From IMG/VR virus record IMGVR_UViG_3300017971_000766, positions 1 through 23,750 of that record: a stretch of DNA of 23,750 nt; one strand, 5' to 3'. Shown here in pieces: positions 3,864-21,306 of this stretch; position 1 is the first letter of the stretch; every line of letters starts with the position of its first letter. The notes beneath the pieces were generated by a model that saw nothing but the letters and a program-made list of their open reading frames with translations, was not told where the DNA came from and searched no databases. The translations under genes and the position numbers were made by a program. Origin of the DNA: a virus.

Positions 3864-4346
3864 ATCTGTAGAGACCAGGCAACACACCTGCTTTCCGCTT
3901 TCGCAACTGCACTTCGGCCTTTTGGGAGTTGGCCAGTCAGAACGAGTCATCTTCCACTCTATAGAATCAGGAAGAGTCCAGAGTCCTTTTTTGCCTGCAC
4001 AGTAGATTGGCTTTCGAAGCTTCAAAGGTGCAGTGAGCAACCAGCACTTCGGACCTGTAGACCAGGGATCGTTCCTGACAGCAGGATCGTCTACTCCGAG
4101 GATTGCCCTGATTCGAACAGTCCCGAGGATACAGCCAAGTTTGAAAGACTTCGGATCGTGACACTTTGGCCACAGTTTCCGAATCTGTGACTTCTCGAGA
4201 AGTCCGGGATTCCACCTTTTCGAAGTGGCATGAATCGCAATCGTCTGTCCTGTAAGGGAAAGATATCCCCAAGTGCGATTCTCCACTTTCTTCACTCCTT
4301 CGATAATCGCAGAAGCGAAGGGCTGATGTATTGACAGAGCTTTCAT
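3807..4346 (-). CDS. ASCH-domain protein with Cys-rich C-terminus
   Basis: I chose the ATG at 4346 because the protein then begins MKALSIHQPFASAIIEGVKK, the classic start of ASCH/PUA-like domains (usually 'MKALSLrQPwA.lI..G.K..E.R.w'), and GGAG lies 10 bases upstream. ASCH proteins bind RNA or modified nucleosides, and some hydrolyse N4-acetylcytidine. The domain spans about residues 1-130. The C-terminal 45 residues are Cys-rich (PKCSCESGKQVCC, then QGCRDC), which suggests a metal-binding addition not typical of the family. The frame stays open 44 codons upstream of this ATG with protein-like sequence (see 4347-4531). Last gene of the minus-strand module. Confidence 0.75.
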   Translation of the reverse strand: MKALSIHQPFASAIIEGVKKVENRTWGYLSLTGQTIAIHATSKRWNPGLLEKSQIRKLWPKCHDPKSFKLGCILGTVRIRAILGVDDPAVRNDPWSTGPKCWLLTAPLKLRKPIYCAGKKGLWTLPDSIEWKMTRSDWPTPKRPKCSCESGKQVCCLVSTDLGLVQGCRDCRPKGKPIF

Positions 4347-4531
4347 TCTGGCATGTCTCCTATCTTCCAAAGTCACATCGTAGCCTGCTTCTGACAGCAG
4401 GACTTTGGCGAATGATACCGGGTCTTGCCCTGGTTCTAGGTACTTTGCCAGGAATGCTATCAGCCTGAATCCATCGGCCTAGTGTTCGCATCAACCATGC
4501 ATCTGGCATAAATACAATTCTCACAAGCCAT
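4347..4531 (-). pseudogene. Frameshifted small Cys-containing ORF upstream of, and in frame with, the ASCH gene
   Basis: An ATG at 4531, five bases after the primase-helicase stop, opens MACENCIYARCMVDANTRP and then reads into TGA at 4460-4462. In the frame shifted by one base the sequence continues in good protein style (DGFRLIAFLAKYLEPGQDPV, then SFAKVLLSEAGYDVTLEDRR) with no stop straight into the ASCH gene. One extra base near 4473-4479, for example a third C in GGCCG, would join the parts. The result would be a roughly 60-residue small protein or an N-terminal extension of the ASCH protein. CENC...C could bind metal. This could be a real indel, recoding or a sequence error. Confidence 0.45.
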
Positions 4532-4536
4532 GTGTC

Positions 4537-6381
4537 TCACAACGGAATTCCTTCTTCGGGGTCCAGGTACATTGCTTTTTCTTTGTCTAGCTTCATCTCT
4601 ATAAGCGCTTCTCTTCCGTATTCCATTCTTTGTTTCAGTGAGACCACAGCAGCAGGGTATAGACCTAGCTCGTCTCTCAAATCTTCTCTGTCATTCGACC
4701 TTGGTCTGTAGACAGAAAGGACGTTTGCAACGTCCTGAAAGGCTTCTGTGTGTCCTTTGATATCAGAAAGTTGCACGGTGTAATCATCGCGGTTCGTGTA
4801 CTGTTTAGGGGCATTCGAGTGGGCAAGTAGCCACATATGAGATTGAGAAGTAGAAATTATAGTCTGGCAATCCATAATTATTTGGTCTTGTATATCCCAT
4901 CTTTTTCTGGAGTCTCTTTTCGTCATAAAGTGCAAATGATCAACAACAATACAATTACAACACAGTCCTCTCACACAGTAGTCTAAAGTCTCTCTGAACT
5001 TCGCAGAGTCGACAGCTCCGACATGTCGAAACATCACAAACGACTGTCCGAATTCTTCGATAGCCTGAACGCAACTTTCTTTCCCTGCTTTGTAAGGATC
5101 CTTCCCTACATGTCTCCGAATCAGTTTGACCGCTGCAAATGTCGGCCCACCTTCAATGGCACAGACCATGATTTTCTTTCCTGTTGCGGCTTGCCTGTAG
5201 GCTGCATCTAGTACGAAGGTTGTTTTTCCAGCTCCGCTCTGTCCTGTAACAAGCGTCACTTCTCCTGGTCTCCATCCTCCTATTGCTTCGTCGAGACAGT
5301 TCCAGCCAGTAGGCCAGCCTTTAGGGTTCTCTCGGAAGATGGAATCCAGAATGTCTGCTTTCAGGTCCAGGATCGATACTATCTTTTTCTGTCCTACAGA
5401 TTCTGCGTTCCTGACTATAGTCTCGACAGCAGTCCAATCAAGAGACCCTGCTTGGTAGGCCTCGTTTCCGTCTTTGTAACCTTCTGGCCAGTGTCCTACT
5501 TTGCACCTGTAGACACCGATTGATTCTACTGCCTTACTGGCCCCAATCTCTCCAGCCTCGTCATTGTCGAAGCACACAACGACTTCTTCGAACTCTTCCA
5601 GCTGTTTCGAAAAGGTATCCTTCCAGTTACCTTCTCCAGAAGGAACAGAGAACGGACAGATGCCACAGGCCTCCCAATCTCCCTTGTCGAGTTCCCAATC
5701 AATCGCAGACTGAACCACAGACAGACAGTCGATTTCTCCTCCTACAACAAGGGCAGTCTTGTCCTTTCGGAGTCCTATAGGTGCGTATAGGATTTGCGTT
5801 CCACCCTTTATTTGTGAGTATCGAATAGACCCTGCAGATTCAGGTGGAACAGTTCGAAGTTTCACCATTACAGGTTCACTTTTCGAAGCAGGGCCGAAGT
5901 AGGGTATGGAAATGAGTCCTTGTCCTACGACTTTTCCGGTTCGCTTGTCGCCTGGATTCCTTGGGATCCATCCGAGTTTTGCCAGTTTAGAAACTCTGTC
6001 GGAGATTCCTCTGTTTCGAAGGTAGACTCTTGAAGGATCTGCAAGTTTCGAACTCCACAGATACGAAGCCCAGAGTTCCGCTTCAGATCCATGAGACGGT
6101 TCGAAAGCCTTTGACCATTCGAGTTCTTCTTTCCGGCTTTCTCCTGTGAAGTCTCCAATCTCATAGGCGAATCCGAGAAGCCCTTTCAAAGTGTGAAGGT
6201 TGCCTTTCTTACCACAGCTTGCTCGAAGACAACCCCATTGGCCAGTCTTGAGATTCATACTGAATCCTTCAGACTTTCCACACTCTGGACACTTGAACCG
6301 GACTTCTTTCGAACCTAGCTTTTTGAAGGCTATCCCTGCTCGCTTTAGAAACTCGATTGGGGATTCGGAGTGTCCGGTCAA
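4537..6381 (-). CDS. Bifunctional DNA primase-helicase (T7 gp4 / Twinkle type)
   Basis: The 614-residue protein has the full order of the family. A zinc-binding primase head has Cys 31, 34, 51 and 56 (CPEC, then C....C). A Toprim core has GGEID around residue 216 and FDNDEAG at 271-277, which bind Mg2+. A RecA-type replicative helicase has Walker A GQSGAGKT at 380-387, Walker B IVVDH at 478-482, and SDIKGH at 539-544, matching the nucleotide- and DNA-binding loop of T7 gp4. It unwinds the fork and lays down RNA primers. The start codon is TTG, overlapping the previous stop as TTGA (6378-6381), which couples it to the organizer gene. Confidence 0.93.
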   Translation of the reverse strand: MTGHSESPIEFLKRAGIAFKKLGSKEVRFKCPECGKSEGFSMNLKTGQWGCLRASCGKKGNLHTLKGLLGFAYEIGDFTGESRKEELEWSKAFEPSHGSEAELWASYLWSSKLADPSRVYLRNRGISDRVSKLAKLGWIPRNPGDKRTGKVVGQGLISIPYFGPASKSEPVMVKLRTVPPESAGSIRYSQIKGGTQILYAPIGLRKDKTALVVGGEIDCLSVVQSAIDWELDKGDWEACGICPFSVPSGEGNWKDTFSKQLEEFEEVVVCFDNDEAGEIGASKAVESIGVYRCKVGHWPEGYKDGNEAYQAGSLDWTAVETIVRNAESVGQKKIVSILDLKADILDSIFRENPKGWPTGWNCLDEAIGGWRPGEVTLVTGQSGAGKTTFVLDAAYRQAATGKKIMVCAIEGGPTFAAVKLIRRHVGKDPYKAGKESCVQAIEEFGQSFVMFRHVGAVDSAKFRETLDYCVRGLCCNCIVVDHLHFMTKRDSRKRWDIQDQIIMDCQTIISTSQSHMWLLAHSNAPKQYTNRDDYTVQLSDIKGHTEAFQDVANVLSVYRPRSNDREDLRDELGLYPAAVVSLKQRMEYGREALIEMKLDKEKAMYLDPEEGIPL

Positions 6382-6926
6382 CTGTGGCTCCTGATTCTGT
6401 CACGAATGGATTGCTTCTGTTTCGAATTTGTTGCATCTGACATTTCGAGAAAGCGTTCAACGTGGTCTGTGGTTCGACATACTAGTTCAATGTCATTGTA
6501 TGCTTTCTTTCCTGGCTGTTTCGGATTGTAGAAGTCATCTGCAAGCATCGCATCAATAGCGCGCTTCAGATCCTGTGCAGAGAACTCTTGCAGTCGAAGT
6601 CTAATTTTCTCGCGTCGCCTCGGAGTCAATCTTGTCCGCTTGTTTTTTTCTGCGTTCCGTTTCCAGTGTTCGAATATAGAGTTGATGTCATCCGTTCGAA
6701 CAATGGTTTTGTCGATTTCCAGAACAACAGTTCCATCTCTTTTGATGGATGCGAGAATTCTTCCCTTTGCTAATTCTGGAGCGAGCTTATTCCTTATCGC
6801 TTCCTTTACTTCGTCAACTGGTATCTCCAGAAGGAGAGAAACTGTAGACTGTTGAAGCGAGACAACAGGATTTCCAGAGTGCAAAGCGAAGTAATAGAGC
6901 AACCTTGCTCGTAATCTCCATAGCAT
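6378..6926 (-). CDS. Replisome organizer / helicase-loader-like protein
   Basis: I placed the start at ATG 6926 (182 residues), because the only upstream option is a TTG at 6965 and the intervening codons are the shared leader motif. Residues 1-70 look like a small winged-helix domain. The C-terminal 90 residues (SIFEHWKRNAEK, RLTPRRREKIRLRLQEFSAQ, DLKRAIDAMLADDFY, YNDIELVCRTTDHVERFL) match the C-terminal domain of phage replisome organizers (phg_2220_C type): a 'W' helix, 'lTp.Rr..I..rl.efs..dl..AI', and a final 'd...ER'. Such proteins recruit the helicase to the origin. Translational coupling to the primase-helicase agrees with this. Confidence 0.7.
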   Translation of the reverse strand: MLWRLRARLLYYFALHSGNPVVSLQQSTVSLLLEIPVDEVKEAIRNKLAPELAKGRILASIKRDGTVVLEIDKTIVRTDDINSIFEHWKRNAEKNKRTRLTPRRREKIRLRLQEFSAQDLKRAIDAMLADDFYNPKQPGKKAYNDIELVCRTTDHVERFLEMSDATNSKQKQSIRDRIRSHS

Positions 6927-6960
6927 GTCAGTTCCCCTGTCTGTGGCTTTGGGTAGGGTA
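6924..6960 (-). promoter_or_regulatory. Conserved leader motif before the replisome organizer gene
   Basis: Read on the minus strand, CTACCCAAAGCCACAGACAG is followed by GGGAACTGAC and ATG 6926. The CCCAAAGC.ACA block and the GACAG(A/G).GG block recur before at least eight other genes here. The second block supplies the ribosome binding site. The motif decides the start codon for this gene. Confidence 0.6.
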
Positions 6961-6964
6961 GCCA

Positions 6965-6980
6965 AGAGGCTTTTGCCTCT
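6965..6980. repeat. Perfect 6-bp hairpin with T4/A4 loop between SSB and organizer genes
   Basis: AGAGGC and GCCTCT flank a four-base loop. The hairpin lies between the SSB stop (6996-6998) and the leader of the next gene. There is no long T-run after it on the minus strand, so it is more likely an mRNA processing or stability element, or an operator, than a classic terminator. Confidence 0.5.
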
Positions 6981-6995
6981 CGACTCTATAACAGA

Positions 6996-7568
6996 CTAGA
7001 AGGGGACGTCTGCGTCATAATATGTAGTGTCGTCTTCTCCGTTCGAACCGAATCCATCCAACGGCCTTCCGTCGAAGTCCTGGTATGAATCATCAGGAAG
7101 GGGTGGCTCTCCATCGTCGTATGTGGCTAGCATGAGCTTGACCGCTTCCCGTGGAAGTCGGCTGTACTCTTCCGATTGTGCATTCGTGAACTTGCGACCG
7201 TCGTTCCCTTCTGTGTCCTGATTCTTCGTTTCGACGATGCACACCTTTCCGAGCATGTTCCTGGTGACAGACTCCGAGACAAGAGGATTGAGTCCTGCTG
7301 GATCCTTGTCTATCGCCTGGATTCCTGTGGCTCTACAGATCCGCTGTAGTTTGCCGTATCCGTACCAGACTTTCTTACAGATGATGTACTCTCGCCAGTT
7401 CAGACCTTTCTGGGCATCTTCAACGATCGTCCAGCGCAAAGCAATCATTGGATCCCCTTTTCGAGACTCTGTCAGGAAGGCCTTTGTTATTTGTGCGATG
7501 TGTTCTCCTTCTTCGATTATTTCGGATCCGTAGTCTTCGTCTAGGGAAAATGGACTGTCGTTGCTCAT
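6996..7568 (-). CDS. DUF669-type single-stranded DNA-binding protein
   Basis: The protein has 190 residues. The N-terminus MSNDSPFSLDEDYGSEIIEE and the body (IAQITKAFLTESRKGDPMIA, ...ALRWTIVEDAQKGLNWREYI) resemble DUF669 proteins, which in many phages act as the SSB and lie next to a Sak4-type recombinase, as here. The C-terminus is acidic and ends DADVPF. This matches the bacterial SSB tail (D.D.PF) that recruits replication and repair partners. The stop is TAG right after that tail, which shows TAG really terminates in this genome. The N-terminal FSLDEDYGS is shared with the helicase at 11719-13497. Confidence 0.75.
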   Translation of the reverse strand: MSNDSPFSLDEDYGSEIIEEGEHIAQITKAFLTESRKGDPMIALRWTIVEDAQKGLNWREYIICKKVWYGYGKLQRICRATGIQAIDKDPAGLNPLVSESVTRNMLGKVCIVETKNQDTEGNDGRKFTNAQSEEYSRLPREAVKLMLATYDDGEPPLPDDSYQDFDGRPLDGFGSNGEDDTTYYDADVPF

Positions 7569-7682
7569 GTGTTTGTGCTCCTTCGGCGTGGTTATGAGGG
7601 GCCCTCAGAACTCCTGCTTTGGGTTCAGGTGTGTTTCCTTGGTCGGTCCTGTCGAAAGGCTCCAGAGGGTCTGTGGCTTGCG

Positions 7683-8483
7683 CTACGCCTCCTGTTTGAC
7701 ATGTTCTGCAGAGTCCCCTTCCGCATGGGGTACAGAATCCATGTCTGGATACATCGAAAGCAGGAGAGAGCCTAGTGTTGTGCAGCCTGGAGTGTCCAAT
7801 TTCGAAACTGTGACACCTGGTATTGTTTCCAGAGTAGGAAGGGTCTTTGTCACGAACTGCTGTCCTAGATTCCATGCAATTGCGTATTGTCCGCTTCGCT
7901 TGTGAGCATAGCCTACCCCGGAGAAATACTGCCCTACTCGCTCGGGCATCTGTCCATGTAGAGCTGGAACAGTCCTGCGAGGAATCCCGTCGCTTCCTCC
8001 AGTCGACTGCTGGAGAGCTGTGCAGATTACGTTGCATGGTAGACTTCGAAGTTTGTGCAGAAAGCGTCCAAGCTCTTTCTGAGTCAATCCCCATCGCTTC
8101 AGGGTCTTACGTTCGTCTTCGTCAACCCTCATGTATTCGGAGATCCGAGTGTGAAGATCTGTCAAGGAGTCGAACACAAGGGTCTGGATCGTGTATTTCT
8201 CCGATCCCTTTCCCTTGAACTGCAAAGCGGGCTGTCCATCGACATCGACAACGGTTCCCTTCGTCATAGCCTCGACGATACGGGAGATCGCTTCATAGTC
8301 TCGGACGAGGAAAACTTCAGCGTCCGGGTTCGCAACAGCGATCGATGGGATCGATTGATGTTCGGTTGCGATAATGAAGGGGAGAGGGCTTCTCGAAGCC
8401 CATGTCGTCTTCCCCGTCCCTGAGTCCCCGTATACGAGAAGCTTCAGGAAGGGTTGTTCTTTGTGTAGTTCGCTTGCTTTCAC
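7683..8483 (-). CDS. Sak4-type RecA-fold recombinase / AAA_24 nucleotide-binding protein
   Basis: The protein has 266 residues. Walker A GDSGTGKTT spans residues 19-27 and the Walker B-like TLVFDS ends with Asp 105. The core has the short RecA fold of phage AAA_24/Sak4 proteins, which promote single-strand annealing with the phage SSB. The DUF669 SSB gene directly downstream is the usual partner. The start is GTG at 8483, overlapping the previous stop as GTGA and preceded by AAGGAGG, the strongest ribosome binding site in this module. After the TAG stop the frame stays open 25 codons, but that stretch holds the next leader, so I do not read it as an extension. Confidence 0.82.
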   Translation of the reverse strand: MKASELHKEQPFLKLLVYGDSGTGKTTWASRSPLPFIIATEHQSIPSIAVANPDAEVFLVRDYEAISRIVEAMTKGTVVDVDGQPALQFKGKGSEKYTIQTLVFDSLTDLHTRISEYMRVDEDERKTLKRWGLTQKELGRFLHKLRSLPCNVICTALQQSTGGSDGIPRRTVPALHGQMPERVGQYFSGVGYAHKRSGQYAIAWNLGQQFVTKTLPTLETIPGVTVSKLDTPGCTTLGSLLLSMYPDMDSVPHAEGDSAEHVKQEA

Positions 8484-8884
8484 AAGTCCTCCTTCATCAT
8501 GTCAAACATTTTTGCGATTGCAGTCAATGCAATCTGTCTGACACGTTCTCTGGTTATGTTCATGTGTCTGGCCATTTCTTCGAAAGAAGAGCCTCCACGG
8601 TCTGCAATATCCAATGAACATGTTTCTTTCATTTCATGTATTTGCATTGTGCGTGATATCAATTTTATTGATCCGCTTTTTGTTACAGTTATAAACAAGT
8701 GGTGTCTGCATCCAACCCATGGGCAGGGTCTCCTGTTCCCACATTCTCCTCTTGTTTTTGGTCTTTTATGGTCTGTCTTTTCTGCAACGAGCTTTTTGCT
8801 TGTTCTGATTGTATGTTGCTTTCCATACATCTTCTTTAAAAGAAGATTGTATTTTTCTTTCTGGATTTTGTTTATTGTTCTCAC
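8480..8884 (-). CDS. Sigma-70 region 4-like HTH protein with a Cys/His N-terminal part
   Basis: The protein has 134 residues. The C-terminus GGSSFEEMARHMNITRERVR followed by QIALTAIAKM is a clear sigma region 4-type helix-turn-helix (residues 99-125), the part of a sigma factor that reads the -35 box. No region 2 is present, so it cannot be a complete sigma factor. It may redirect host RNA polymerase or act as a repressor. The middle part (GECGNRRPCPWVGCRHHLFI, Cys 48, 54, 59 and His 61/62) looks metal-binding and recurs in a family of 'sigma-like HTH' proteins I recall from phage and plasmid genomes. The GTG start overlaps the preceding stop as GTGA, with no ribosome binding site of its own. 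Confidence 0.7.
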   Translation of the reverse strand: MRTINKIQKEKYNLLLKKMYGKQHTIRTSKKLVAEKTDHKRPKTRGECGNRRPCPWVGCRHHLFITVTKSGSIKLISRTMQIHEMKETCSLDIADRGGSSFEEMARHMNITRERVRQIALTAIAKMFDMMKEDL

Positions 8885-9043
8885 TTTGTATTGTAAATTG
8901 CCCTGTCGAGTTTTTCGAGAAGCTCTTTCGAGTGTTTCTCACACAAGCGGATCTGTACCACAGCAGTCCGGTTCATAGCTGATTCCGTATTCTGGAGCGA
9001 TACATTCTTCCAACTTGTGTGTTGCTTTTCTGACGTCAATCAT
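8881..9043 (-). pseudogene. Frameshifted (or overlapping) micro-gene for a Cys/His zinc-type peptide
   Basis: ATG 9043 opens 34 codons (MIDVRKATHKLEECIAPEYG, then ISYEPDCCGTDPLV) ending at TGA 8939-8941. In the +1 frame the sequence continues as CEKHSKELLEKLDRAIYNTK and stops at 8881-8883 in a GTGA overlap with the sigma-like gene. An alternative ATG at 8976 opens the second frame alone (31 residues). Joined, the product would be about 54 residues with a CC....VC..H metal-binding knot. Loss of one GT unit in CTTGTGTGAG, or +1 slippage at the TGA, would explain the break. Two coupled micro-ORFs remain possible. No function is known. Confidence 0.5.
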
Positions 9044-9057
9044 TATTGCGTCTGCTC

Positions 9058-9279
9058 TTACTTGTTGAACCACACAACATGTGTGAATCGCTTGTCAGGT
9101 CCTAATACAGATCGGATACTTCTAAGGCAGATAGTTCTGTTGAACATTTCTGTTCTGTTTGCGTATTTTGCAAACCCGTCGTAGTCAGAAAATACGCCTC
9201 TTCGTACACATTCGACAAACTCGCACATTTCCATGTGTTCTCCATATTTCGGGATAGGCAAATGTTCTAGTTCTTCCAT
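9058..9279 (-). CDS. Small protein of unknown function
   Basis: The protein has 73 residues, beginning MEELEHLPIPKYGEHMEMCE and ending in THVVWFNK. It is acidic at the start and basic at the end, with no membrane segment and no motif I recognise. The ATG lies behind AGGGA at a usable distance and nine bases after the nuclease stop, so the gene sits in the same minus-strand operon. The micro-gene at 9043 begins 14 bases after its stop. Real coding is supported by the tight packing and ordinary composition. Confidence 0.6.
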   Translation of the reverse strand: MEELEHLPIPKYGEHMEMCEFVECVRRGVFSDYDGFAKYANRTEMFNRTICLRSIRSVLGPDKRFTHVVWFNK

Positions 9280-9288
9280 GGTTATTCC

Positions 9289-10434
9289 CTAGTGTGTTTG
9301 TTCTGTCCGATCGATTGTGTACCTTTCGATGGCAGTCCGGTTCTGATACTTGCACAAGTCCATGTATTCACAGGATCTGTTATACAGGTAGCAAGCGTGA
9401 TTCGAACGCGGGTAGTCTGCTCCGTGCTGCTTCAGAAATTTGAGAGCCCAATCAAGCGAGTCTGCTTTATCCAATAGTTGCAAAGCCCCGAACAACTCCT
9501 TGTGATACGCCTGTCGAATCTCTGTAGAAACTTTCCAGAGTTCCCGAACAACTCTCCATTGGTCCTGTTCCACAAATCGAACTGTGTACCTTCGGACAAA
9601 AGGATTCTGCTTTCTCCTCAGTTTCGACAACTGTTCTTCGTAGTCCTCGACTTTGAATCCATAGTGTCGGATTGCACGTAGGAGGCTTGTGCTGGTCGAG
9701 TCCTTGGGTAGGATTTTAGAAAGCCTGGTTCCTTTCGAAACGACCTTGTATTGTTCAGGTCCTGGCTCTGATGCCTTCCTGGCTAGATCGTAGATGACTC
9801 CTACAGGCTTCAGTCCAAGGCACTGTTCTACAAGGTAGGAGTATGTGATTGCTTGCGGATTGTACTCGTGTCTATCCAGCCACAGATCGAGATTGCCGTA
9901 GGATGAACAAGTCTTGTGCTCGACAATCCATATTTGACCGTACTTATCTTTAACAATCTTGTCGATGGTTCCACAGATTCTGGACACAGGGGAGAACCTT
10001 CCTGGCCTTGGTTGTGTCCTGGATTCTAGTCGAATCTCCGATTTTATCAGTTCGTATTCTTCTAAAGTCTGGTCGTAGAACTCGGAATCGTATTTATGGA
10101 TCAGGAATGTCAGCAGTTCTTCTGCCTCGTCGAGTTCTTCTTCTGTATAGCCTGGCATCACAGAATCAAGGGAGAACTCAACACCGGCTTCCTTCTTTGC
10201 TTCCTCGATTCCTTTCGAAAGGACTTCCCTGTATTCCTGAGCCCACAGAGAACTCTCTTTATGGATTGCCTCTTTCCACCATACGTCTAGCATTTCGTGC
10301 CAGAGCGATCCGATAATCAAATCTAGGCTTTTCCCTCGTGAACGTCGCAATCGCAGTCCGAACACGAACAGCCATAGCATCTTGCACTTTTCCCAGCAGG
10401 AACGCTGGGAGTTCGAGATTGTGTAACTGGGCAT
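9289..10434 (-). CDS. Cas4/RecB-type PD-(D/E)XK nuclease with probable Fe-S cluster
   Basis: The protein has 381 residues. The nuclease core shows GSLWHEMLD (His 46), GTIDKI (Asp 158), WIVEHKT (Glu 172, Lys 174) and PQAITYSYL (Gln 194, Tyr 198), the ordered motifs of the RecB/Cas4 superfamily. Cys 13 or 17 near the start and Cys 348, 355 and 361 at the end (ACYLYNRSCEYMDLC) match the split Cys pattern that holds a 4Fe-4S cluster in Cas4 and AddB. It probably resects DNA ends for recombination with Sak4, SSB and the UvrD-like helicase, which lie in the same operon. The ATG follows AGAAGGAG in the shared leader. No Cas1/Cas2 or array is present, so this is a phage recombination nuclease. Confidence 0.85.
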   Translation of the reverse strand: MPSYTISNSQRSCWEKCKMLWLFVFGLRLRRSRGKSLDLIIGSLWHEMLDVWWKEAIHKESSLWAQEYREVLSKGIEEAKKEAGVEFSLDSVMPGYTEEELDEAEELLTFLIHKYDSEFYDQTLEEYELIKSEIRLESRTQPRPGRFSPVSRICGTIDKIVKDKYGQIWIVEHKTCSSYGNLDLWLDRHEYNPQAITYSYLVEQCLGLKPVGVIYDLARKASEPGPEQYKVVSKGTRLSKILPKDSTSTSLLRAIRHYGFKVEDYEEQLSKLRRKQNPFVRRYTVRFVEQDQWRVVRELWKVSTEIRQAYHKELFGALQLLDKADSLDWALKFLKQHGADYPRSNHACYLYNRSCEYMDLCKYQNRTAIERYTIDRTEQTH

Positions 10435-10480
10435 TCTGTTCTCCTTCTGTCGGTTGTGTTGCCTTGGGTATGGGTTCCAA
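10432..10480 (-). promoter_or_regulatory. Conserved leader motif before the nuclease gene
   Basis: On the minus strand, ATACCCAAGGCAACACAACC and then GACAGAAGGAG precede ATG 10434. The spacing between the two blocks is longer than in other copies by about four bases. An ATG at 10480 opens a competing frame through the leader that I treat as non-coding. Confidence 0.55.
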
Positions 10481-10492
10481 TTCAGGCGTAGT

Positions 10493-11254: not shown

Positions 11255-11255
11255 G

Positions 11256-11522
11256 TCATAACTCAACCAGTTGTGTTCGCTCCACAATCTCAAGCATTGC
11301 AGAGCAGAGTTGTAGGAGTTCTTTTGATTTGTCTTCTTTCCCTTCTTCTCGGATGGACCGGGCTTTGTCCACTGCAGCCCTGGAAGAGAGGAGTAGAAGC
11401 GGAGCAAGGGCTTCCAGGGTCCACGGGGCTTTGTGCTGAGCTTCTCTCTCAATCAGATCTGCTATGTCTCTGATGATGGTAGAAAGTGCTTGCAGGTCTA
11501 CTCTTCCTCTCCTCTCATCCAT
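11256..11522 (-). CDS. Small helical protein of unknown function
   Basis: The protein has 88 residues and is almost entirely helical, with heptad-like Leu/Ile spacing (DLQALSTIIRDIADLIEREA and ELLQLCSAMLEIVERTQL) and a central basic-acidic stretch. This suggests a small dimer or coiled coil. The start overlaps the end of the interrupted gene 11498-11722 by 25 bases. Its stop is one base before the methyltransferase ATG, so the two are probably translated together. It might assist or regulate the methyltransferase, but only by association. Confidence 0.6.
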   Translation of the reverse strand: MDERRGRVDLQALSTIIRDIADLIEREAQHKAPWTLEALAPLLLLSSRAAVDKARSIREEGKEDKSKELLQLCSAMLEIVERTQLVEL

Positions 11523-11722
11523 ACAGATTCTCCGACCTTATCATAGTGATTGTGTTGCAATCTCAGGAATGCGAGTCCAGGACTCGGACTCTGGGGTACT
11601 AATACATACCCCTGTACTCCCCATGTCCTGACTTCTGTTACCACCAGGAGACACGCGGCAAAGACCGGATTGATTTATGGGTCAATCTGTAAGATGTCTC
11701 CGACTTCGATCTGATTGTTCAT
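11498..11722 (-). pseudogene. Small phage protein gene interrupted by in-frame TAA
   Basis: ATG 11722 overlaps the helicase stop as ATGA and opens MNNQIEVGDILQIDP. TAA then falls at 11675-11677, and the same frame continues 57 codons (INPVFAACLLVVTEVRTWGV, QGYVLVPQSPSPGLAFLRLQ, ending VWMRGEEE) to TAG 11498-11500. The joined sequence closely resembles a small phage family I recall, with 'GDIvQidP..nP.F..Cl.vVtEvksWGvQGyV..p', in which the stop position is an ordinary residue. No start codon follows the stop early enough to rescue the second part. Options are a nonsense mutation (for example CAA or GAA to TAA), readthrough, or a sequence error. Confidence 0.65.
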
Positions 11723-13497: not shown

Positions 13498-13557
13498 ATG
13501 TGTCTCCTTCTGTCTGTTGCTTGGGGTAGGGTCCCTGCTTTCGAAGCAGTAGCAGGG
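13495..13557 (-). promoter_or_regulatory. Conserved leader motif with hairpin before the UvrD-like helicase gene
   Basis: On the minus strand, ACCCTACCCCAAGCAACAGA and CAGAAGGAG precede ATG 13497 with a gap suited to a ribosome binding site. Just upstream, 13533-13557 forms a hairpin (CCCTGCT with AGCAGGG, or TGCTT with AAGCA) whose centre holds TTCGAA. The same order of hairpin, CCCAAAGC block and GACAG.AGGAG block is seen before the replisome organizer gene. Confidence 0.6.
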
Positions 13558-13573
13558 GAACTGATGTGGTCTG

Positions 13574-14914: not shown

Positions 14915-14977
14915 GTTCTGTGCCTCCTTTGTGGCGGTTCCAAGTAACAAGTCCATCGCTGTTCCTTTCGAAAGGAA
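14912..14977 (-). promoter_or_regulatory. Leader with strong ribosome binding site and 16-bp palindrome
   Basis: AAAGGAGG stands before ATG 14914, preceded by a weaker copy of the shared leader (GGAACCGCCACA). Upstream at 14962-14977 is a perfect 16-base palindrome, TTCCTTTCGAAAGGAA, centred on TTCGAA. A related palindrome (CCTCTTTCGAAAGAGG) is at 18555-18570 inside a gene, and a 14-base version lies near 10210. It may be a protein-binding site or a hairpin in the mRNA. Confidence 0.5.
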
Positions 14978-14995
14978 AGAGGCAGAGTGGAGCTG

Positions 14996-15637
14996 CTACA
15001 CAGAGAGCAAAGCCTTCCTGACTTGAAGCCCAAGTCCTGTCAATTCTCCGCTGTGATCCGAACAGACATCGCCTTTCTGACTGTCATGATACAGAATTCT
15101 GTACTTTGCTAGTTCTCTGTCAACAAGGGCTTTCATCGTGCGCTTGTCGATGCAAATCAGAGTTTCGCTGGTCTCGATTGTCTTGACCATGCCTTCAGAA
15201 AGCTTGTGCTTTCGAATGACATCTTCTCTTTCTTCCGGCTTCGGATCTTTCCACACGATCGGAGCGAACTCTCCCGTACAGCTGTAATGCCAGAGGAACA
15301 AATCACCAAGGCTCATTTCGTCCTTGCCACCGTCTTGTCGATTGTACTCTGCGAACAAGTCTTCGAAGTCTTCCCGAACAAATAGGTCCGGTTCTTCGTC
15401 CAGTATGCTGTTGATCGCATTCGAAACGTGCCCGTAGGCCGAAAGGATCCTGCTGGTCTGTCCGTTGTTCGCATTCAGGACTTCCAGTGCTTCGCATAGG
15501 TTATTGAAAGTCGAGACAAGCTCTTTCCCTCTTGCAGCCCTGTCCTTCTTCGTTCCGAGTCGCATCAATTCGGAGTAGGAGTGTCCGATCGGGATTCCGT
15601 CCAGTCCCCTGCAGAGTTTGTTGCTTCCTGGTACCAT
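14996..15637 (-). CDS. Protein of unknown function
   Basis: The 213-residue protein is mostly helical and mildly acidic in the middle (SILDEEPDLFVREDFEDLFA) and has no membrane segment. I recognise no family. The start at ATG 15637 follows AAGGGAGAGAG in a copy of the shared leader, which supports both the gene and the start. The length and even composition make it a confident coding call. The operon context places it with replication and control genes rather than virion genes. Confidence 0.75.
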   Translation of the reverse strand: MVPGSNKLCRGLDGIPIGHSYSELMRLGTKKDRAARGKELVSTFNNLCEALEVLNANNGQTSRILSAYGHVSNAINSILDEEPDLFVREDFEDLFAEYNRQDGGKDEMSLGDLFLWHYSCTGEFAPIVWKDPKPEEREDVIRKHKLSEGMVKTIETSETLICIDKRTMKALVDRELAKYRILYHDSQKGDVCSDHSGELTGLGLQVRKALLSV

Positions 15638-15677
15638 GCTCTCTCCCTTGTCTGTGTTGTTTTGGCTGGGCAGGGTC
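15635..15677 (-). promoter_or_regulatory. Conserved leader motif before the gene at 14996-15637
   Basis: On the minus strand, GCCAAAACAACACAGACAAG and GGAGAGAGC lead to ATG 15637. The first block is a degenerate copy (AAAACAACA for AAAGCAACA), while GACA(A/G)GG is kept. Upstream, between this and the next stop, GGCCT and AGGCC near 15710-15730 can form a short hairpin. Confidence 0.45.
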
Positions 15678-15747
15678 TGTTGCGTCCCTGGACTCCGGGA
15701 AGGAGTTTCGGCCTACCGCCGCAGGCCTCGTCAGCAGGGTTTGCTGT

Positions 15748-15927
15748 TTAGTCTGTCTTGTGGAGCCTGTAGATTCCAAGCTCGTTTCCGTATGCAATCC
15801 CTTCGATCTGAAGGTCTGTCAAAACGTAGTGAACCTGATATTCATCCAGTCCTGAGCAAGCACAGATTGCTTCGACGGTGCACACGTTCTTCAAAAGGTA
15901 ATAGAGTACCAGAGTTCTGTTGCTCAT
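15748..15927 (-). CDS. Small winged-helix DNA-binding protein
   Basis: The 59-residue ORF runs from ATG 15927 to TAA 15748-15750. It begins MSNRTLVLYYLLKNVCTVEA, then ICACSGLDEYQVHYVLTDLQ, then IEGIAYGNELGIYRLHKTD. Two helices, a recognition helix (EYQVHYVLTDLQIEG) and a two-strand wing (IAYGNELGIYRL) make a compact winged helix like the MarR/DprA-WH type. The shared leader and AAGGAG precede the ATG, so expression is very likely. It probably represses or tunes early transcription, judged from its position next to another winged-helix gene close to the divergent control region. Confidence 0.7.
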   Translation of the reverse strand: MSNRTLVLYYLLKNVCTVEAICACSGLDEYQVHYVLTDLQIEGIAYGNELGIYRLHKTD

Positions 15928-15968
15928 TTTTTGCTCCTTGTCTTTGTTGCCTTTGGGGGGTCCAGGGT
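15925..15968 (-). promoter_or_regulatory. Conserved leader motif before the small winged-helix gene
   Basis: On the minus strand, CCCCCCAAAGGCAACAAAGA and CAAGGAGC lead to ATG 15927. A 30-codon frame from the ATG at 16015 runs through this leader and ends as ATGA on the gene start. It could be a leader peptide, but the overlap with the motif makes that doubtful. Confidence 0.5.
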
Positions 15969-16062
15969 TTGTTTCCTCTCCCTGACAAGAGGCAAAATAC
16001 TACTGATCGATCCCATGGTCAACAGAATTCGAAAAAAACTTTGTCTTTTTTTTCTTTCTAGT

Positions 16063-16566
16063 CTATCTGCCCGAAATGTAGCGCTTTCTGCGTCTCTTGC
16101 CAGACCCGATATATTCGATTCGAAGGGCTCCGAGGTGCCTTGCTCGACGAATTCGACGCCTTTCCGCAGATGTCCTGGCATGAATCGGCTTTCTCTGGAT
16201 AGGTCGAACCTGGATTCTGATTTGCTCGTTCCTTTGTTCTGCTTTCGAAGGGGACTCCTTCAGTCCTGTCTTTCGAGGCTTCTTTTTCGGAGCTGGCTTG
16301 GTCTTATGGTCTTCGAAGTCGTCTTCGTCGCTTTCGAGAACGAACCAGTCTGCCCCTGGCCTTTCGATCTTCAGGACTTCTCCAGAGTCGACAAGAGAGC
16401 GGAGAGCATTCCTTACTGTCGAAACGGCTGGAACTTTATCAGGCTTGAATCCCTCTGTTTCAATGCTCGACAGGTATGCTATTCTTTCTGCTATTGTTCT
16501 GGCACTCGGCTTTTCTATTCCATCCCTTATGGCTGATAGTACTTTTTCTTTAGTGCTATAATACAT
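16063..16566 (-). CDS. Winged-helix regulator with long basic tail
   Basis: The protein has 167 residues. Residues 1-80 form a winged helix: KEKVLSAIRDGIEKPSARTI, AERIAYLSSIE, recognition helix VSTVRNALRSLVDSGEVLKI, and wing ERPGADWFVLES. An acidic bridge (DEDDFED) leads to a very basic tail (KKKPRK, ERRRIRRARH, GKRRRKR) of about 70 residues that could bind DNA or RNA without specificity. It is the first gene of the minus-strand module, directly beside the gene-free divergent region, which suits a regulator of that switch. The ribosome binding site is AAAGGAAC before ATG 16566. The recognition helix aligns with that of the gene at 18826. Confidence 0.75.
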   Translation of the reverse strand: MYYSTKEKVLSAIRDGIEKPSARTIAERIAYLSSIETEGFKPDKVPAVSTVRNALRSLVDSGEVLKIERPGADWFVLESDEDDFEDHKTKPAPKKKPRKTGLKESPSKAEQRNEQIRIQVRPIQRKPIHARTSAERRRIRRARHLGALRIEYIGSGKRRRKRYISGR

Positions 16567-16586
16567 GTCTGTTCCTTTTGAAGTTC

Positions 16587-16645
16587 AACGGCTCCACTGG
16601 AACCCTGCTGAACCACCAGTTAGAGGCTGCTTCCAGGGAACCGTT
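16587..16645. repeat. Imperfect inverted repeat in the divergent region
   Basis: The arms AACGGCTCCACTGGAA (16587-16602) and TTCCAGGGAACCGTT (16631-16645) pair except for one mismatch and one bulged base, with a 28-base loop. The repeat lies 21 bases upstream of the start of the winged-helix gene, where an operator or an mRNA structure would act. Confidence 0.55.
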
Positions 16646-16755
16646 TGCAAAGCGTAGCGAAAAAACACTGGACAGTGCAAGGCTTGCGTGGCAGTCTGGT
16701 CAAGCACGCTCCTTCTGTCCCTTCCCTCGGAAGACGGAAGCAGAGTTGCTTTGGG

Positions 16756-16805
16756 TAGCCCCCTATAGGTGTCCCTGATTAAGCCAGGGGCACCGTAGGG
16801 GGCTA
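16756..16805. repeat. Long, nearly perfect stem-loop in the divergent region
   Basis: The arms TAGCCCCCTATAGGTGTCCCTG and the complement CAGGGGCACCGTAGGGGGCTA surround a seven-base loop (ATTAAGC), with about 20 pairs, one bulge and one mismatch or GU pair. No T-run follows on either side, so it is a poor fit for an intrinsic terminator. An origin hairpin, a protein-binding cruciform or a structured leader RNA are possible. Confidence 0.65.
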
Positions 16806-16831
16806 GGGGAGGCAACAGGGACGGAGTACAG

Positions 16832-16871
16832 CGTGTCCCCAAAGCGACCGACAGACAAAGGAGGCACTATG
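16832..16871 (+). promoter_or_regulatory. Conserved leader motif before the first plus-strand gene
   Basis: CCCCAAAGCGACCGACAGAC is followed by AAAGGAGG, four bases and ATG 16869. This is the same arrangement used on the minus strand, now on the plus strand, so the motif belongs to gene starts of both modules. Confidence 0.6.
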
Positions 16872-17036
16872 ATTCGAAAGTGTACAAACCACAGATGTAA
16901 GAATCCTGGACAGGATAAACTGCATAAAAAGTGGAATCGTTTAATGAATTACAGCCCTAAGAAGGGCGTGGTTCGTTGTACTGTTTGCGGTATGGAATAT
17001 ACTGTTTCAGACAGAGAGGATACGCCAGACAAATGA
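16869..17036 (+). CDS. Small zinc-ribbon protein
   Basis: The 55-residue protein begins MIRKCTNHRCKNPG, with Cys 5 and 10, and later VVRCTVCGMEYTV, with Cys 37 and 40. The spacing is that of a zinc ribbon. I chose ATG 16869 because AAAGGAGG lies four bases upstream and the earlier in-frame ATG at 16833 reads through the leader. The stop overlaps the next ATG as ATGA (17033-17036). Its function is unknown. It is the first of about nine small Cys-pair proteins encoded on the plus strand. Confidence 0.75.
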   Translation: MIRKCTNHRCKNPGQDKLHKKWNRLMNYSPKKGVVRCTVCGMEYTVSDREDTPDK

Positions 17037-17989
17037 CAGAACGGACTGCACTTCTGTCCATCCCTGTCCCTACGCTGAGCCAGAACCGTATACAACGGCT
17101 GCACTGGGCTCAGTACAGGGATCACAAAAAAGACCTTCATCTGTTAATCCGTTCTGCTATATCCAGACTTGGAAGAAATAATCTTCCGGCAGGATGCAAT
17201 AACGGAAAGCTTACAACTCACAACGGGAAAGTCCCGAAAGGGGAAGTCGAAGGAGAATGGACCCCTCCGAGTGTCAAAGTCAATCTTCTTTTGATTCGAT
17301 ATGGTCCCCAAACACTGGACAAAGGCAATCTCATAGGAGGCGCAAAGCCGCTTCTAGATGTCCTGACAGAAGAAGGGATTCTAGTAGATGACAGACCGGA
17401 GTGGTTAGAAGATAAATACGAGCAAGTGAAAGAAAAAGGAGTAGGAAAGACTATATTAAAGTTTACATGGGGAGAGAAAGAAAAACAACACAAGCAACAG
17501 GAGAAAAGAAACATGTTTGAATTCGAAAAGAAGTCTGTAGAGATTGACAGGATCGAAGTGCGAGAAAAGTACAACAGCGAAGATGGACAGACTTTCTATA
17601 TCTGTCGTGCAAAGCTCGTAATTGAAGATATCTGGACAGGCTCTGTTCCTGAAATGGAAGGAGCACTTGAAGCAGCGAAGAAGGCAGGAGAAGACATCGA
17701 AGGCACTGTTGCAGTGACTTTCAAGTCGAATGCATGGCCTACACAGGTTCTGAAGTTCTCCGATTCTAAGAACAAACGCTACTCTGCGAAACTAATTGGC
17801 GCTCCGGTCAACAGGCCGAAAGCTTCGATTGTCGGAGATACAGGGATCGTTACCCTGGCATGGACTGTGGAAGATCGAAGGGTCGAAGAGAAGATGCTTT
17901 CGAGGCTTTGTAAAGCTGTGAAGTCGAAGACGATCCTGTTCTCGACAGACGACGTGCAGGGCTCTCTTCCACTGCAGGAAGTAGCCTAG
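17033..17989 (+). CDS. RusA-like Holliday junction resolvase fused to a second domain
   Basis: The product has 318 residues from the ATGA overlap. Residues 1-145 resemble RusA-type resolvases: IPVPTLSQNRIQRLHWAQYR near the start and LDKGNLIGGAKPLLDVLTEE followed by GILVDD. RusA enzymes use acidic residues in a D.DN...K...D...DD array to cut Holliday junctions. Here the second Asp of D.DN is Gly (DKGN), so activity is uncertain. Residues 161-318 are a separate strand-rich domain (ICRAKLVIEDIWTG, GTVAVTFKSNAWPTQVLKFS, GDTGIVTLAWTVEDRR) that I do not recognise. The joint (KEKQHKQQEKRNM) contains AGGAGAAAAGAAACATG, so the second domain may also be made alone from ATG 17513. Confidence 0.7.
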   Translation: MTERTALLSIPVPTLSQNRIQRLHWAQYRDHKKDLHLLIRSAISRLGRNNLPAGCNNGKLTTHNGKVPKGEVEGEWTPPSVKVNLLLIRYGPQTLDKGNLIGGAKPLLDVLTEEGILVDDRPEWLEDKYEQVKEKGVGKTILKFTWGEKEKQHKQQEKRNMFEFEKKSVEIDRIEVREKYNSEDGQTFYICRAKLVIEDIWTGSVPEMEGALEAAKKAGEDIEGTVAVTFKSNAWPTQVLKFSDSKNKRYSAKLIGAPVNRPKASIVGDTGIVTLAWTVEDRRVEEKMLSRLCKAVKSKTILFSTDDVQGSLPLQEVA

Positions 17990-17999
17990 TCGAACCAAT

Positions 18000-18037
18000 C
18001 CCAACCCAAAGCAGTTCCGACATAAGGAGACAAAATG
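18000..18037 (+). promoter_or_regulatory. Conserved leader motif before the gene at 18035
   Basis: CCCAACCCAAAGCAGTTCCG is followed by ACATAAGGAG, six bases and ATG 18035. The CCCAAAGCA block and the A-rich ribosome binding site are kept. The gap between the previous stop (17987-17989) and this ATG is made of little else. Confidence 0.55.
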
Positions 18038-18316
18038 GTTGTTCAGAAGGTGGCAAAGACGTTCTGGTCATGCATTCGAAACAGATGGGATTTTGTGAAA
18101 GAGTCACAGTTCCCTACTGAGATTCGAAAGGCTGATTGTCAACAGGCCGAAATTCGCAGATGCTACTACAAAGTTTCTTTCGAAAAGGATTCCAGAGGAA
18201 ATAACGTAGAAAAGTTTCAGGCTTGGATCAAGACTGAATCTGAACCTGTGCTCTGTGGGGTAGCTCTCCGAGAACACGAGAAGAAACAGCAGCAGAACAG
18301 ACAACTCCCAGCGTAG
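18035..18316 (+). CDS. Small basic protein of unknown function
   Basis: The 93-residue protein has a basic N-terminal half (KTFWSCIRNRWDFVKESQFP), three Cys without regular spacing and a Gln/Lys-rich end (REHEKKQQQNRQLPA). It has no membrane segment. A strong ribosome binding site (AAGGAG) and the shared leader support the ATG. A nine-base hairpin covers the stop codon (18304-18327). No homologous family was recognised. It may bind nucleic acid because of its charge, but nothing more can be said. Confidence 0.65.
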   Translation: MVVQKVAKTFWSCIRNRWDFVKESQFPTEIRKADCQQAEIRRCYYKVSFEKDSRGNNVEKFQAWIKTESEPVLCGVALREHEKKQQQNRQLPA

Positions 18317-18327
18317 TGGCTGGGAGT
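18304..18327 (+). repeat. Perfect 9-bp hairpin over the stop codon of the preceding gene
   Basis: ACTCCCAGC and GCTGGGAGT flank GTAGTG, and the stop TAG is in the loop. There is no T-run behind it, so it would be a weak intrinsic terminator at most. It could protect the mRNA 3' end or affect termination at the stop codon. Confidence 0.6.
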
Positions 18328-18389
18328 GTCCACCGAGGGGCTAGACTTAAAAGGAATCCTCACAATAATCAGAGCACAGGTGTAGTCAA

Positions 18390-18839
18390 GTGGGCAGAAA
18401 CAGCAGAAGCAGGAATAGGGCGCGCAAAGCCAGGCAGAAGAAGTTTCACGATCAAGTAGCAGGACTCCGAAAAGATAGAAGGAACGCAGTTCAGGCTTGT
18501 TGCGCGAAGGCTGGCAAGGCTCTCGTTCTTCAGAATTTGTCAGACCTTCCAGACCCTCTTTCGAAAGAGGACTTTGAGAAGCACGTTTCCACCTGGCACA
18601 CGATTGCAGAAGTGGCAGTAGCCGGATCATGGTTCGCGTTCGTAGCAGCAGGAATCACATCGATGCAGGAAGACGGGGAGTGGTTTAACGGAATCTACCC
18701 TGAGCTTGTCAAAGTGTCCCTGCTGGACGGAGAAGTTTCTGCATACCTCCGAGGCTATACGCAAGAGAAAGCATCGATCGGCCTGTCAGATGAAGGCACG
18801 ATTATTGTCTTGTGGAGAGAAGACGATGCAGAAGCTTGA
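18390..18839 (+). CDS. Protein of unknown function with basic N-terminus
   Basis: The 149-residue protein starts at GTG 18390 with a very basic stretch (GRNSRSRNRARKARQKKFHD), then a helical region and a hydrophobic helix (IAEVAVAGSWFAFVAAGITS, about residues 71-90) that may be buried rather than membrane-spanning. The C-terminus is acidic (WREDDAEA). The Shine-Dalgarno sequence is weak, so the exact start is uncertain. The end overlaps the next gene by 14 bases. A 16-base TTCGAA-centred palindrome (18555-18570) lies within the coding sequence. No family was recognised. Confidence 0.6.
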   Translation: MGRNSRSRNRARKARQKKFHDQVAGLRKDRRNAVQACCAKAGKALVLQNLSDLPDPLSKEDFEKHVSTWHTIAEVAVAGSWFAFVAAGITSMQEDGEWFNGIYPELVKVSLLDGEVSAYLRGYTQEKASIGLSDEGTIIVLWREDDAEA

Positions 18840-19080
18840 AACGTATCAGAAGGTCAATCTTGCCCTTGTATCGATTGGAGAAGGGACAGTCTCTGAAGTC
18901 CTAGCAGAACTCAAAAGAATGGCTGCAAAGGACGAAGGATTCTGCCCTGTCCCTTCGATGGATTCAGTTCGAAAGACGCTCGAATCATAGGCAAAGAAAG
19001 ACGAAGTGGTCTGCAAGGAAGAAGTTCATTCTGATGAAGTAGAACGGATCGTTTCTCTTCTCAGAAGAGGTAGAAGATAA
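18826..19080 (+). pseudogene. Winged-helix gene interrupted by in-frame TAG
   Basis: ATG 18826 lies inside the end of the previous gene. The first part is 54 residues (MQKLETYQKVNLALVSIGEG, TVSEVLAELKRMAAKDEG, SMDSVRKTLES), then TAG at 18988-18990. The same frame goes on for 29 codons (AKKDEVVCKEEVHSDEVERI, then VSLLRRGRR) to TAA 19078-19080, just before the next ATG. Aligned with the regulator at 16063, SVRKTLES-AKKDEVV matches TVRNALRSLVDSGEVL, so the TAG sits exactly where a residue of the recognition helix belongs. An intact protein would be 84 residues with a full wing. Readthrough, nonsense mutation or error are the options. Confidence 0.6.
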
Positions 19081-19083
19081 GTC

Positions 19084-19794
19084 ATGCGTAGGACCGGGAG
19101 AGAGGAAGCAGAGAGACTCTGGAGGCTCTTGCAGGATGACCCTACAGATGTTCCAGCCTGGAGAGCCATAAGGCCTCTGTTGAGGGCTCAGGGGCGTTCT
19201 GTAGGGTCTCTGTTCCAGTCTGTCTATCTGCGAGCAACCGAAGCCCCAAGGCCTCCACAGAGCCAGCAGGAAGCAAACGAGCAGCAGTCTGTGATGCTAG
19301 AGAATGCGTCCTGGATTGTTAATTGTCTCGACGCCTTTGGATGGAGTTTCCAACTCGGAACAGTCGAAGGAAAAGCACACACGTTCCATCATGACGTATT
19401 GATTGGCTCCGTTTCTTTCCCCGGAAGGTCTCCGTTCAATGTCAGAAGGACAAAAAAGATCCTGATTGAAATGCTGCACCTTCGTGGTGTATGTAGAGTC
19501 GGGTATTCAATCACATACAACGCTCAATATCCGCTGCCAGAGGAGCAAATCACACTAGGTAATCTGTGTTTGGAATGCCTCTCGAAAATCACAGACCCTG
19601 ATGCACCTCTACTACTTTCGAAAAAGGAGCAGAAAGAACTTCAGGACAGAAAATCTGCCGAGCAACTTCGACAACTGAAAGCAGAGCAAGAACAAGCTCT
19701 TCGAATGTCGAAAGAATACAGACTCGAGAAAAAACGAAAGCAGGAAAAAGAACGGGAAGCGTTCCTAGACAAGTGGCACAGGGAGAACTACTAA
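19084..19794 (+). CDS. Protein of unknown function with C-terminal charged coiled coil
   Basis: The protein has 236 residues. Residues 1-60 are Arg/Pro-rich. Residues 72-170 have mixed strands and helices (FQLGTVEGKAHTFHHDVLIG, FNVRRTKKILIEMLHLRGVC) and could be a compact domain. Residues 178-236 are a long Lys/Glu/Gln helix (KKEQKELQDRKSAEQLRQLK and on to KRKQEKEREAFLDKW) that should form a coiled coil. No family was recognised. The stop overlaps the next ATG as TAATG, so it is coupled to the frameshifted zinc-ribbon gene that follows. Confidence 0.65.
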   Translation: MRRTGREEAERLWRLLQDDPTDVPAWRAIRPLLRAQGRSVGSLFQSVYLRATEAPRPPQSQQEANEQQSVMLENASWIVNCLDAFGWSFQLGTVEGKAHTFHHDVLIGSVSFPGRSPFNVRRTKKILIEMLHLRGVCRVGYSITYNAQYPLPEEQITLGNLCLECLSKITDPDAPLLLSKKEQKELQDRKSAEQLRQLKAEQEQALRMSKEYRLEKKRKQEKEREAFLDKWHRENY

Positions 19795-19987
19795 TGGCTA
19801 TCTGCATCCGGTGTGGAACACAGTACTTCTACAGTTCTGTTTCGAAAAGGCCGGAGGCAGGATCAGGGTTCCTCACATTGTCCGGTGTGAGAACTGCAAC
19901 GGAAAAAGTTGCGCTGAAGAACTCATACTCTTCGACTTCCCAGAAAGGTCGAAGTGGGCTTGCAGGTATTGCAGGGGAGAGCATTGA
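19794..19987 (+). pseudogene. Zinc-ribbon micro-gene split by a one-base frameshift
   Basis: ATG 19794 begins MAICIRCGTQYFYSSVSK, a clear zinc-binding start. In this frame the sequence then loses protein character, although it stays open to 20075. In the frame reached by one extra base near the AAAA run at 19842-19845 it continues KAGGRIRVPHIVRCENCNGK, then SCAEELILFDFPERSKWACR and YCRGEH, and stops at TGA 19985-19987. The joined protein of about 64 residues has CIRC, CENC..KSC and CRYC, a plausible zinc fold. A deleted A, -1 slippage on the ribosome or transcriptional slippage could explain it. Confidence 0.6.
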
Positions 19988-19993
19988 CTCTAT

Positions 19994-20064
19994 CTATTAT
20001 AGGCGCGCACGCGCTCTACTAATAGGCAATGGAGTAACACAAAGAACGTTCCCCGGAGGGGAAC
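19994..20064. repeat. Two hairpins in the gap before the three-ribbon zinc protein gene
   Basis: At 19994-20025, CTATTA and TAATAG enclose inner pairs TAG/CTA and CGCG/CGCG around CA. At 20048-20064, GTTCCCC and GGGGAAC pair perfectly around GGA. The gap 19988-20110 has no convincing gene. Neither hairpin has a T-run, so RNA processing, stability or operator roles fit better than termination. Confidence 0.5.
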
Positions 20065-20082
20065 AAGAGAGATAAGAAAGAA

Positions 20083-20113
20083 GAACCCAAAGCAAACAGA
20101 AGGAAAAGAAATG
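20083..20113 (+). promoter_or_regulatory. Conserved leader motif before the three-ribbon zinc protein gene
   Basis: AACCCAAAGCAAACAGAAGG is followed by AAAAGAA and ATG 20111. This is the shortest copy: the CCCAAAGCA block and the ACAGAAGG block are fused with no spacer between them. Confidence 0.55.
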
Positions 20114-21103
20114 ACACAATCAGAAATTGAAAATCGAATTGAAAGAATGGAAAAAGAAAGACAAAAGACTTGGACTGATATCTACGATCGAATTGAAGAT
20201 CTTGAATTGTTCAGAGAAAAGATCATAAACATGATTCGTGATTCTTTCGCTTTGACTTCGGTCTTTGAAAAATCAAACAAATGCTCTTTCGAAACAGATT
20301 CTGAAAAGAAGGATCCAATTAGTCCATCTGAACCATTCGAATATCAGTGCTCAAGGTGTCTGCACTACACAGAGACAACTGAACTGTCATACGAACAAGG
20401 AAAGAGGTGCGGTCAATGTGGAGCAGTATTGAATAAACAGGGACACGAAGAAGAATCAGAAGAATCCTCTTTCGAAAGTAAATACGCGGTTACTCAAGCT
20501 CACATTGAAATAGACGCTTTCGATCGATGCCCAGAATGCAAGCTATACATCGGACCAGGAAAGATCGGATCTGAACTTCTCTGCAATCAGTGCTCTAATC
20601 TCATGATTCGAGACTGGATAGACCCTGTCGAAGATGAACAAGGGTTTGCCTTCTGGAAGATCAAACACGAAGAACCTTCCGCCACAGAACTTTCGAAAGA
20701 AGAACTCTTGAGAATAGAGATCATAAAAGTCTTCTATGAGATATTCCGAACAAGTCTCTCTTTCGAGAGTGAGAAACAGGAAGCTGAATACTGGGTAGAA
20801 CAGGTTCTGGAGCAAATTAAAGAAATATGCCCTTTGGAGACTGAAAAGAAACAGAAAGTCTTCGAAGCGAAAGCTGCAAGAGTTCTCATAGACGAAAATG
20901 AAGTCCATTTCGATTCTGAGCCAGCAAGAGATCTGAATAGTCTAGTACAAGACTTCAAACAGATCGAAGGCGAAGAACGCTCAAGACAGTGCCCTAAATG
21001 TCTAAAGCTTTTGCATGCTTTTCCGAAAGGGAAATTCCGTTGCTATTACTGTAGGGCAGAGATTGAGTGGAAAGGAGCACACTGGCAAACTACAGGCAAG
21101 TAG
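20111..21103 (+). CDS. Protein with three zinc ribbons and N-terminal coiled coil
   Basis: The protein has 330 residues. Residues 1-45 form a charged coiled coil (IENRIERMEKERQKTWTDIY). Three Cys2-Cys2 ribbons follow: Cys 80/83 with 100/103 (CSRC, CGQC), Cys 140/143 with 158/161 (CPEC, CNQC), and Cys 294/297 with 311/314 (CPKC, CYYC). A long acidic helical linker separates ribbons two and three. Such arrays bind nucleic acid or other proteins, but no family was recognised. It is the largest member of the zinc-rich run on this strand and may be a scaffold or a transcription factor. The next gene starts five bases after its TAG. Confidence 0.7.
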   Translation: MTQSEIENRIERMEKERQKTWTDIYDRIEDLELFREKIINMIRDSFALTSVFEKSNKCSFETDSEKKDPISPSEPFEYQCSRCLHYTETTELSYEQGKRCGQCGAVLNKQGHEEESEESSFESKYAVTQAHIEIDAFDRCPECKLYIGPGKIGSELLCNQCSNLMIRDWIDPVEDEQGFAFWKIKHEEPSATELSKEELLRIEIIKVFYEIFRTSLSFESEKQEAEYWVEQVLEQIKEICPLETEKKQKVFEAKAARVLIDENEVHFDSEPARDLNSLVQDFKQIEGEERSRQCPKCLKLLHAFPKGKFRCYYCRAEIEWKGAHWQTTGK

Positions 21104-21108
21104 ATTCT

Positions 21109-21306
21109 ATGACCAAAAAGCGAAAGTCCATGTCTGTCTAAGTTGTCGACTCTAACGAATCTACAATCAACCCCTGTATCTGTTTCGAATGTGGAATCGA
21201 AATGGAATCATGGGATGGAGGATACAGAACATGTCCAATCTGTCACAGATCCAGAGTCACGATCGGAACCTGGATTCTCGAGAACTATCAGAGCAACAGG
21301 AAATGA
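21109..21306 (+). pseudogene. Zinc-ribbon micro-gene interrupted by in-frame TAA
   Basis: ATG 21109 reads MTKKRKSMSV and meets TAA at 21139-21141. The same frame then continues VVDSNESTINPCICFECGIE, MESWDGGYRTCPICHRSRVT and IGTWILENYQSNRK to TGA 21304-21306, which overlaps the next ATG as ATGA. The second part carries CICFECG and CPICHRS, a standard zinc ribbon, and has no start codon before the first Cys pair. So it is either translated by reading through the TAA or it is a dead gene. A change of CAA to TAA would explain it. The coupled overlap with the next gene argues that the frame was used until recently. Confidence 0.6.

Follow-up and report, generated by a model that had tools for sequence, protein, structure and literature searches.

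Why would the small genes of a phage be interrupted by stop codons and frame changes while its large genes are whole? The question is raised by a linear window of 23,750 bases, the entire IMG/VR record IMGVR_UViG_3300017971_000766, which is probably a fragment of a phage genome. A sequence-only reading had proposed six small genes (here b1 to b6, in order of position), each carrying a stop or a 1-2 base frameshift. Here we present an analysis that partly confirms a pattern of about six small accessory genes with one interruption each and large genes left whole; the support is strong for three of the six cases, moderate for one and doubtful for two.

Gene content and distribution of the interruptions

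Matches to PHROG and Pfam identified a baseplate protein, an endolysin-like protein and a small terminase on the structural, lysis and packaging side, and a replication-initiation protein, an SSB, a Sak4-like protein, an exonuclease, a DNA cytosine methylase and a UvrD-like helicase on the DNA side, as well as an ASCH protein. The primase/helicase gave low-identity matches in 1,495 phage records. Searches of phage records, of viral contigs (queried with the primase, UvrD helicase, Sak4, sigma-like, g9058 and b3 proteins) and of genome contigs (queried with UvrD) recovered no close relative, though very near records may have been hidden from them. Only distant homologues were retrieved, for UvrD, the sigma-like protein, the DNA methylase and b3, and their contigs showed no synteny with the window except on one contig, where the methylase and the sigma-like gene occur together. 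The sigma-like protein (8480-8884) was assigned by eye and carries the motif RPCPWVGCRHH and a C-terminal helix-turn-helix-like segment; it has no match in phage records and seven relatives in IMG/VR, one of which (L039) adjoins a DNA methylase of 62% identity.

Two further features were noted in the window. A hairpin at 16735-16820 (-53 kcal/mol, z -7.0, equalled by no shuffle) lies between divergent gene sets starting at 16566 (-) and 16869 (+); it has no match in Rfam and is possibly a control element or a replication signal. At 17033-17989, a RusA-like resolvase, recognized by eye and without a Pfam match, and a second coding stretch are read in a single open frame uninterrupted by a stop. 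An AGGAG and an ATG (17513) stand in the middle of this frame, which arose either by fusion or through loss of a stop codon.

The distribution of the breaks is non-uniform. Long genes had been described as unbroken, and indeed no break was seen in the 23 ORFs longer than 110 aa, which cover about 18.6 kb. The small genes (n = 20, about 4.4 kb) make up 19% of the coding length, so that placing six of six breaks among them has p = 5e-5 under a uniform per-base rate, and counting only the three best cases, all in small genes, gives p = 0.007; both values are optimistic, and the contrast inflated, since the small ORFs were chosen for looking broken. The break sites also coincide with the six largest same-direction intergenic gaps out of 34, at 173-316 bp with the next at 135 bp, and most starts or ends of the broken genes are coupled to neighbouring genes.

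The six small genes

Coding potential was assessed with a 3-periodic coding model, whose margins are given in bits, as simple scoring of codons against background proved too weak. For 11498-11722 (b3) and 18826-19080 (b4), whether the protein continues over the break was put to a direct test. The three in-frame stops of the sequence-only reading are present at the sites claimed, namely TAA at 11675-11677 (-), TAG at 18988-18990 (+) and TAA at 21139-21141 (+).

The gene b3 (11498-11722, -) belongs to the phrog_19062 family and has its in-frame TAA at codon 16. Read through this stop, it matches phrog_19062 positions 3-69 of 74 in a profile search (E 1.7e-18), and a DNA search against the family (E 5.6e-20) flags one internal TAA in what is otherwise, for phrog_19062, a continuous open frame. 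Among 25 database copies, some of them near-identical to each other, the column of the stop holds Glu, Ala, Asn, His or Asp and in no case a stop. In a 16-row alignment (A4), none of the seven invariant residues is missing from b3, and six of the seven lie past the stop; b3 shares with the family the invariant Gln, Val, Glu, Trp-Gly and Arg, and differs from the other copies examined by its internal TAA. An exact DNA pattern spanning the break gave no match. On these alignments, we regard b3 as certainly an interrupted gene.

With the TAA taken as Glu, AlphaFold2 predicted a confident five-strand barrel (pLDDT 86.8), in which the stop falls just after strand one. The short product should therefore be inactive, because the break would leave only the first of five strands. 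A fold search with this model returned weak SH3-like matches, mainly 60S ribosomal subunit chains and the cyanobacterial protein Ssl0352, none with E <=0.001, and phrog_19062 is predicted to be a small SH3-like barrel. The homologue in Erythrobacter phage vB_EliS-L02 (L011:289-807) is without the first strand because it is annotated from an internal GTG; its start is probably misannotated, in a gene fused to a further domain.

The winged-helix-like gene b4 (18826-19080, +) is interrupted by TAG at codon 55 and has an intact paralogue in the window, a winged-helix-like protein of 167 aa (16063-16566, -). The two align on both sides of the TAG, with 35% identity and E 0.003 in the 47-protein set, and the paralogue has Leu opposite this codon, which aligns to the recognition-helix region. 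The coding margins are 12.5 and 3.7 bits, and the AlphaFold2 model is poor (pLDDT 56). This alignment gives good grounds for considering b4 an interrupted gene. Both b3 and b4 thus display the features by which a pseudogene would be recognized, an intact homologue and a lesion inside a conserved domain: in b3 the domain is intact in relatives, and in b4 it is common to the paralogue.

Two frames, MIDVRKATHKLEECIAPEYGISYEPDCCGT and QIRLCEKHSKELLEKLDRAIYNTK, make up the small gene b2 (8881-9043, -), the first ending at a stop at 8939-8941. Each half scores as coding, in a different frame and with margins of 19.0 and 9.0 bits, and b2 ends in a GTGA overlap with the GTG that starts the sigma-like gene; the case for b2 as an interrupted gene is good. 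Moderate confidence attaches to b6 (21109-21306, +), a small Cys-rich gene with its TAA at codon 11, which separates an upstream piece of 10 codons from a downstream piece of 54 codons with a coding margin of 7.0 bits. The downstream piece has no ATG, GTG or TTG start ahead of its first CxxC motif, and its 3' end overlaps the ATG of the next gene (ATGA at 21303). The broken parts of b1, b2, b5 and b6 have no reliable homologue in 50,697 phage records, and tblastn of b2, b4, b5 and b6 against phages yielded no usable homologue.

The remaining two cases are doubtful. The candidate small ORF b1 (4346-4531, -) precedes the ASCH gene; its upstream frame closes with the TGA at 4460-4462, and from 4478 its downstream frame stays open and continues in phase into ASCH with no intervening stop. 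The downstream half has a margin of 16.2 bits; the Cys-rich upstream half of 23 codons scores -6.2 bits, below another frame, and b1 is thus half supported as a broken gene, in its downstream half only. Reliable phage matches for this region begin at the ASCH methionine and cover the ASCH part only; one match that apparently reached further upstream was rejected, as it fails by blastp. In the zinc-ribbon-like gene b5 (19794-19987, +), the two frames when joined match Zn_ribbon_SprT in Pfam with E 6e-4, under the curated cut-off. The upstream frame alone stays open to 20075, encoding 93 aa, and the codon model favours it in 19986-20072 and is undecided for the downstream half; as a broken gene, b5 is a weak to moderate case.

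The three frame changes originally proposed have therefore fared unevenly: the one in b2 holds, both halves scoring as coding, the upstream half of b1 is unsupported and the downstream half of b5 is undecided. Likewise, of the claim that sequence beyond the breaks completes metal-binding or winged-helix motifs, the winged helix of b4 is borne out, and the zinc ribbon of b5 weakly so, by its sub-threshold match. Since the downstream part of b1 may belong to ASCH as an N-terminal extension, and b5 may be an intact 93-aa gene at 19794-20075, the true number of breaks may be three or four. The scores of the b1 upstream half and of the b5 upstream frame, together with the absence of a stop between b1 and ASCH, speak for this smaller count; the joined-frame zinc-ribbon match and the unusually large gaps that both genes occupy speak against it, and we put it at somewhat short of an even chance. 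It is compatible with either loss or error at the remaining sites.

Recoding, sequence error or gene loss

An alternative genetic code was rejected, as the sequence-only reading had also concluded, because TGA, TAA and TAG each terminate long genes. No tRNA gene, and hence no suppressor tRNA, lies in the 23,750-base window; such a tRNA may be encoded elsewhere in the genome or by the host. Programmed -1 frameshifting and stop readthrough occur in phages, and a combination of the two could yield joined proteins from all six genes. Like those known systems, most of the breaks here are followed by coding-like sequence, and the conserved residues of b3 persist after its stop. Unlike them, the breaks have no slippery heptamer, no structure that stands out and no conserved stop: the -1 pattern X XXY YYZ is absent from the frame-overlap zones of b1, b2 and b5, and the RNA downstream of the breaks is unremarkable when folded without pseudoknots (z -0.5 to -1.8; -0.5, -0.5 and -0.8 for the frame-change sites b1, b2 and b5). 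At b3, the sole site with database homologues, the stop is shared by none of them. Furthermore, two stop types and frame shifts of opposite direction could be accounted for only by several unrelated mechanisms acting together. We consider recoding of the six genes very improbable, and more improbable still a scheme in which leaky stops and frame changes turn down small accessory genes so that the joined products, regulatory and zinc-binding proteins, are produced in low amounts only. There is no evidence here for a new recoding mechanism.

Of the two explanations originally offered, recoding and selective decay, it is thus selective loss that fits best. We think it somewhat probable that several small accessory genes recently lost function, each by a single lesion, with the core genes kept whole by selection. 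Dispensable small genes would have been disabled, one lesion per gene, by nonsense codons in three cases and by frame changes in up to three, and the genes for replication, recombination, packaging and the tail, being essential, would be intact because selection weeds out breaks in them. The lesions would be present in the phage population, and they would be recent, given one per gene and the conserved residues that b3 still has downstream of its stop; the broken genes may be dispensable under present conditions. The main rival is that sequencing or assembly errors, or the consensus of a strain mixture, made some or all of the breaks in a virus whose genes are whole. This is rather unlikely, and it had been argued beforehand that random error should also strike long genes: a uniform process should have hit the 18.6 kb in which no break was seen, so the distribution does disfavour error. 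Furthermore, only about 5% of random substitutions create stops, so that three stops by random base error imply many more substitutions, and nonsense codons in long genes number zero. Error nevertheless draws support from the nature of the record, a virus fragment lacking both reads and close relatives, from the residues conserved beyond the b3 stop, and from the case in which error is confined to the three indel-type breaks, where their all falling in small genes (p about 0.007) is not prohibitive. Six lesions per 23.7 kb would, moreover, be a high load for a compact phage, which counts against loss.

Loss of this type would be an ordinary event, and it has a small-scale precedent in T4 sublines (PMC8573959). 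There, two frameshift mutations were found in the auxiliary gene arn and the hypothetical gene MobD.6, and none in essential genes, which had missense changes only (PMC8573959). The small auxiliary or hypothetical nature of the frameshifted genes is the point of likeness; the T4 losses were, however, documented between known stocks (PMC8573959), whereas the present case is a single metagenomic sequence with no comparison strain.

Broken genes of this kind are overlooked or truncated by gene callers, which calls for caution with metagenomic virus records. If the lesions are real, the record would provide a clear picture of selection acting in a wild phage at one moment, with the core whole and up to about one third of the small accessory genes carrying single lesions.
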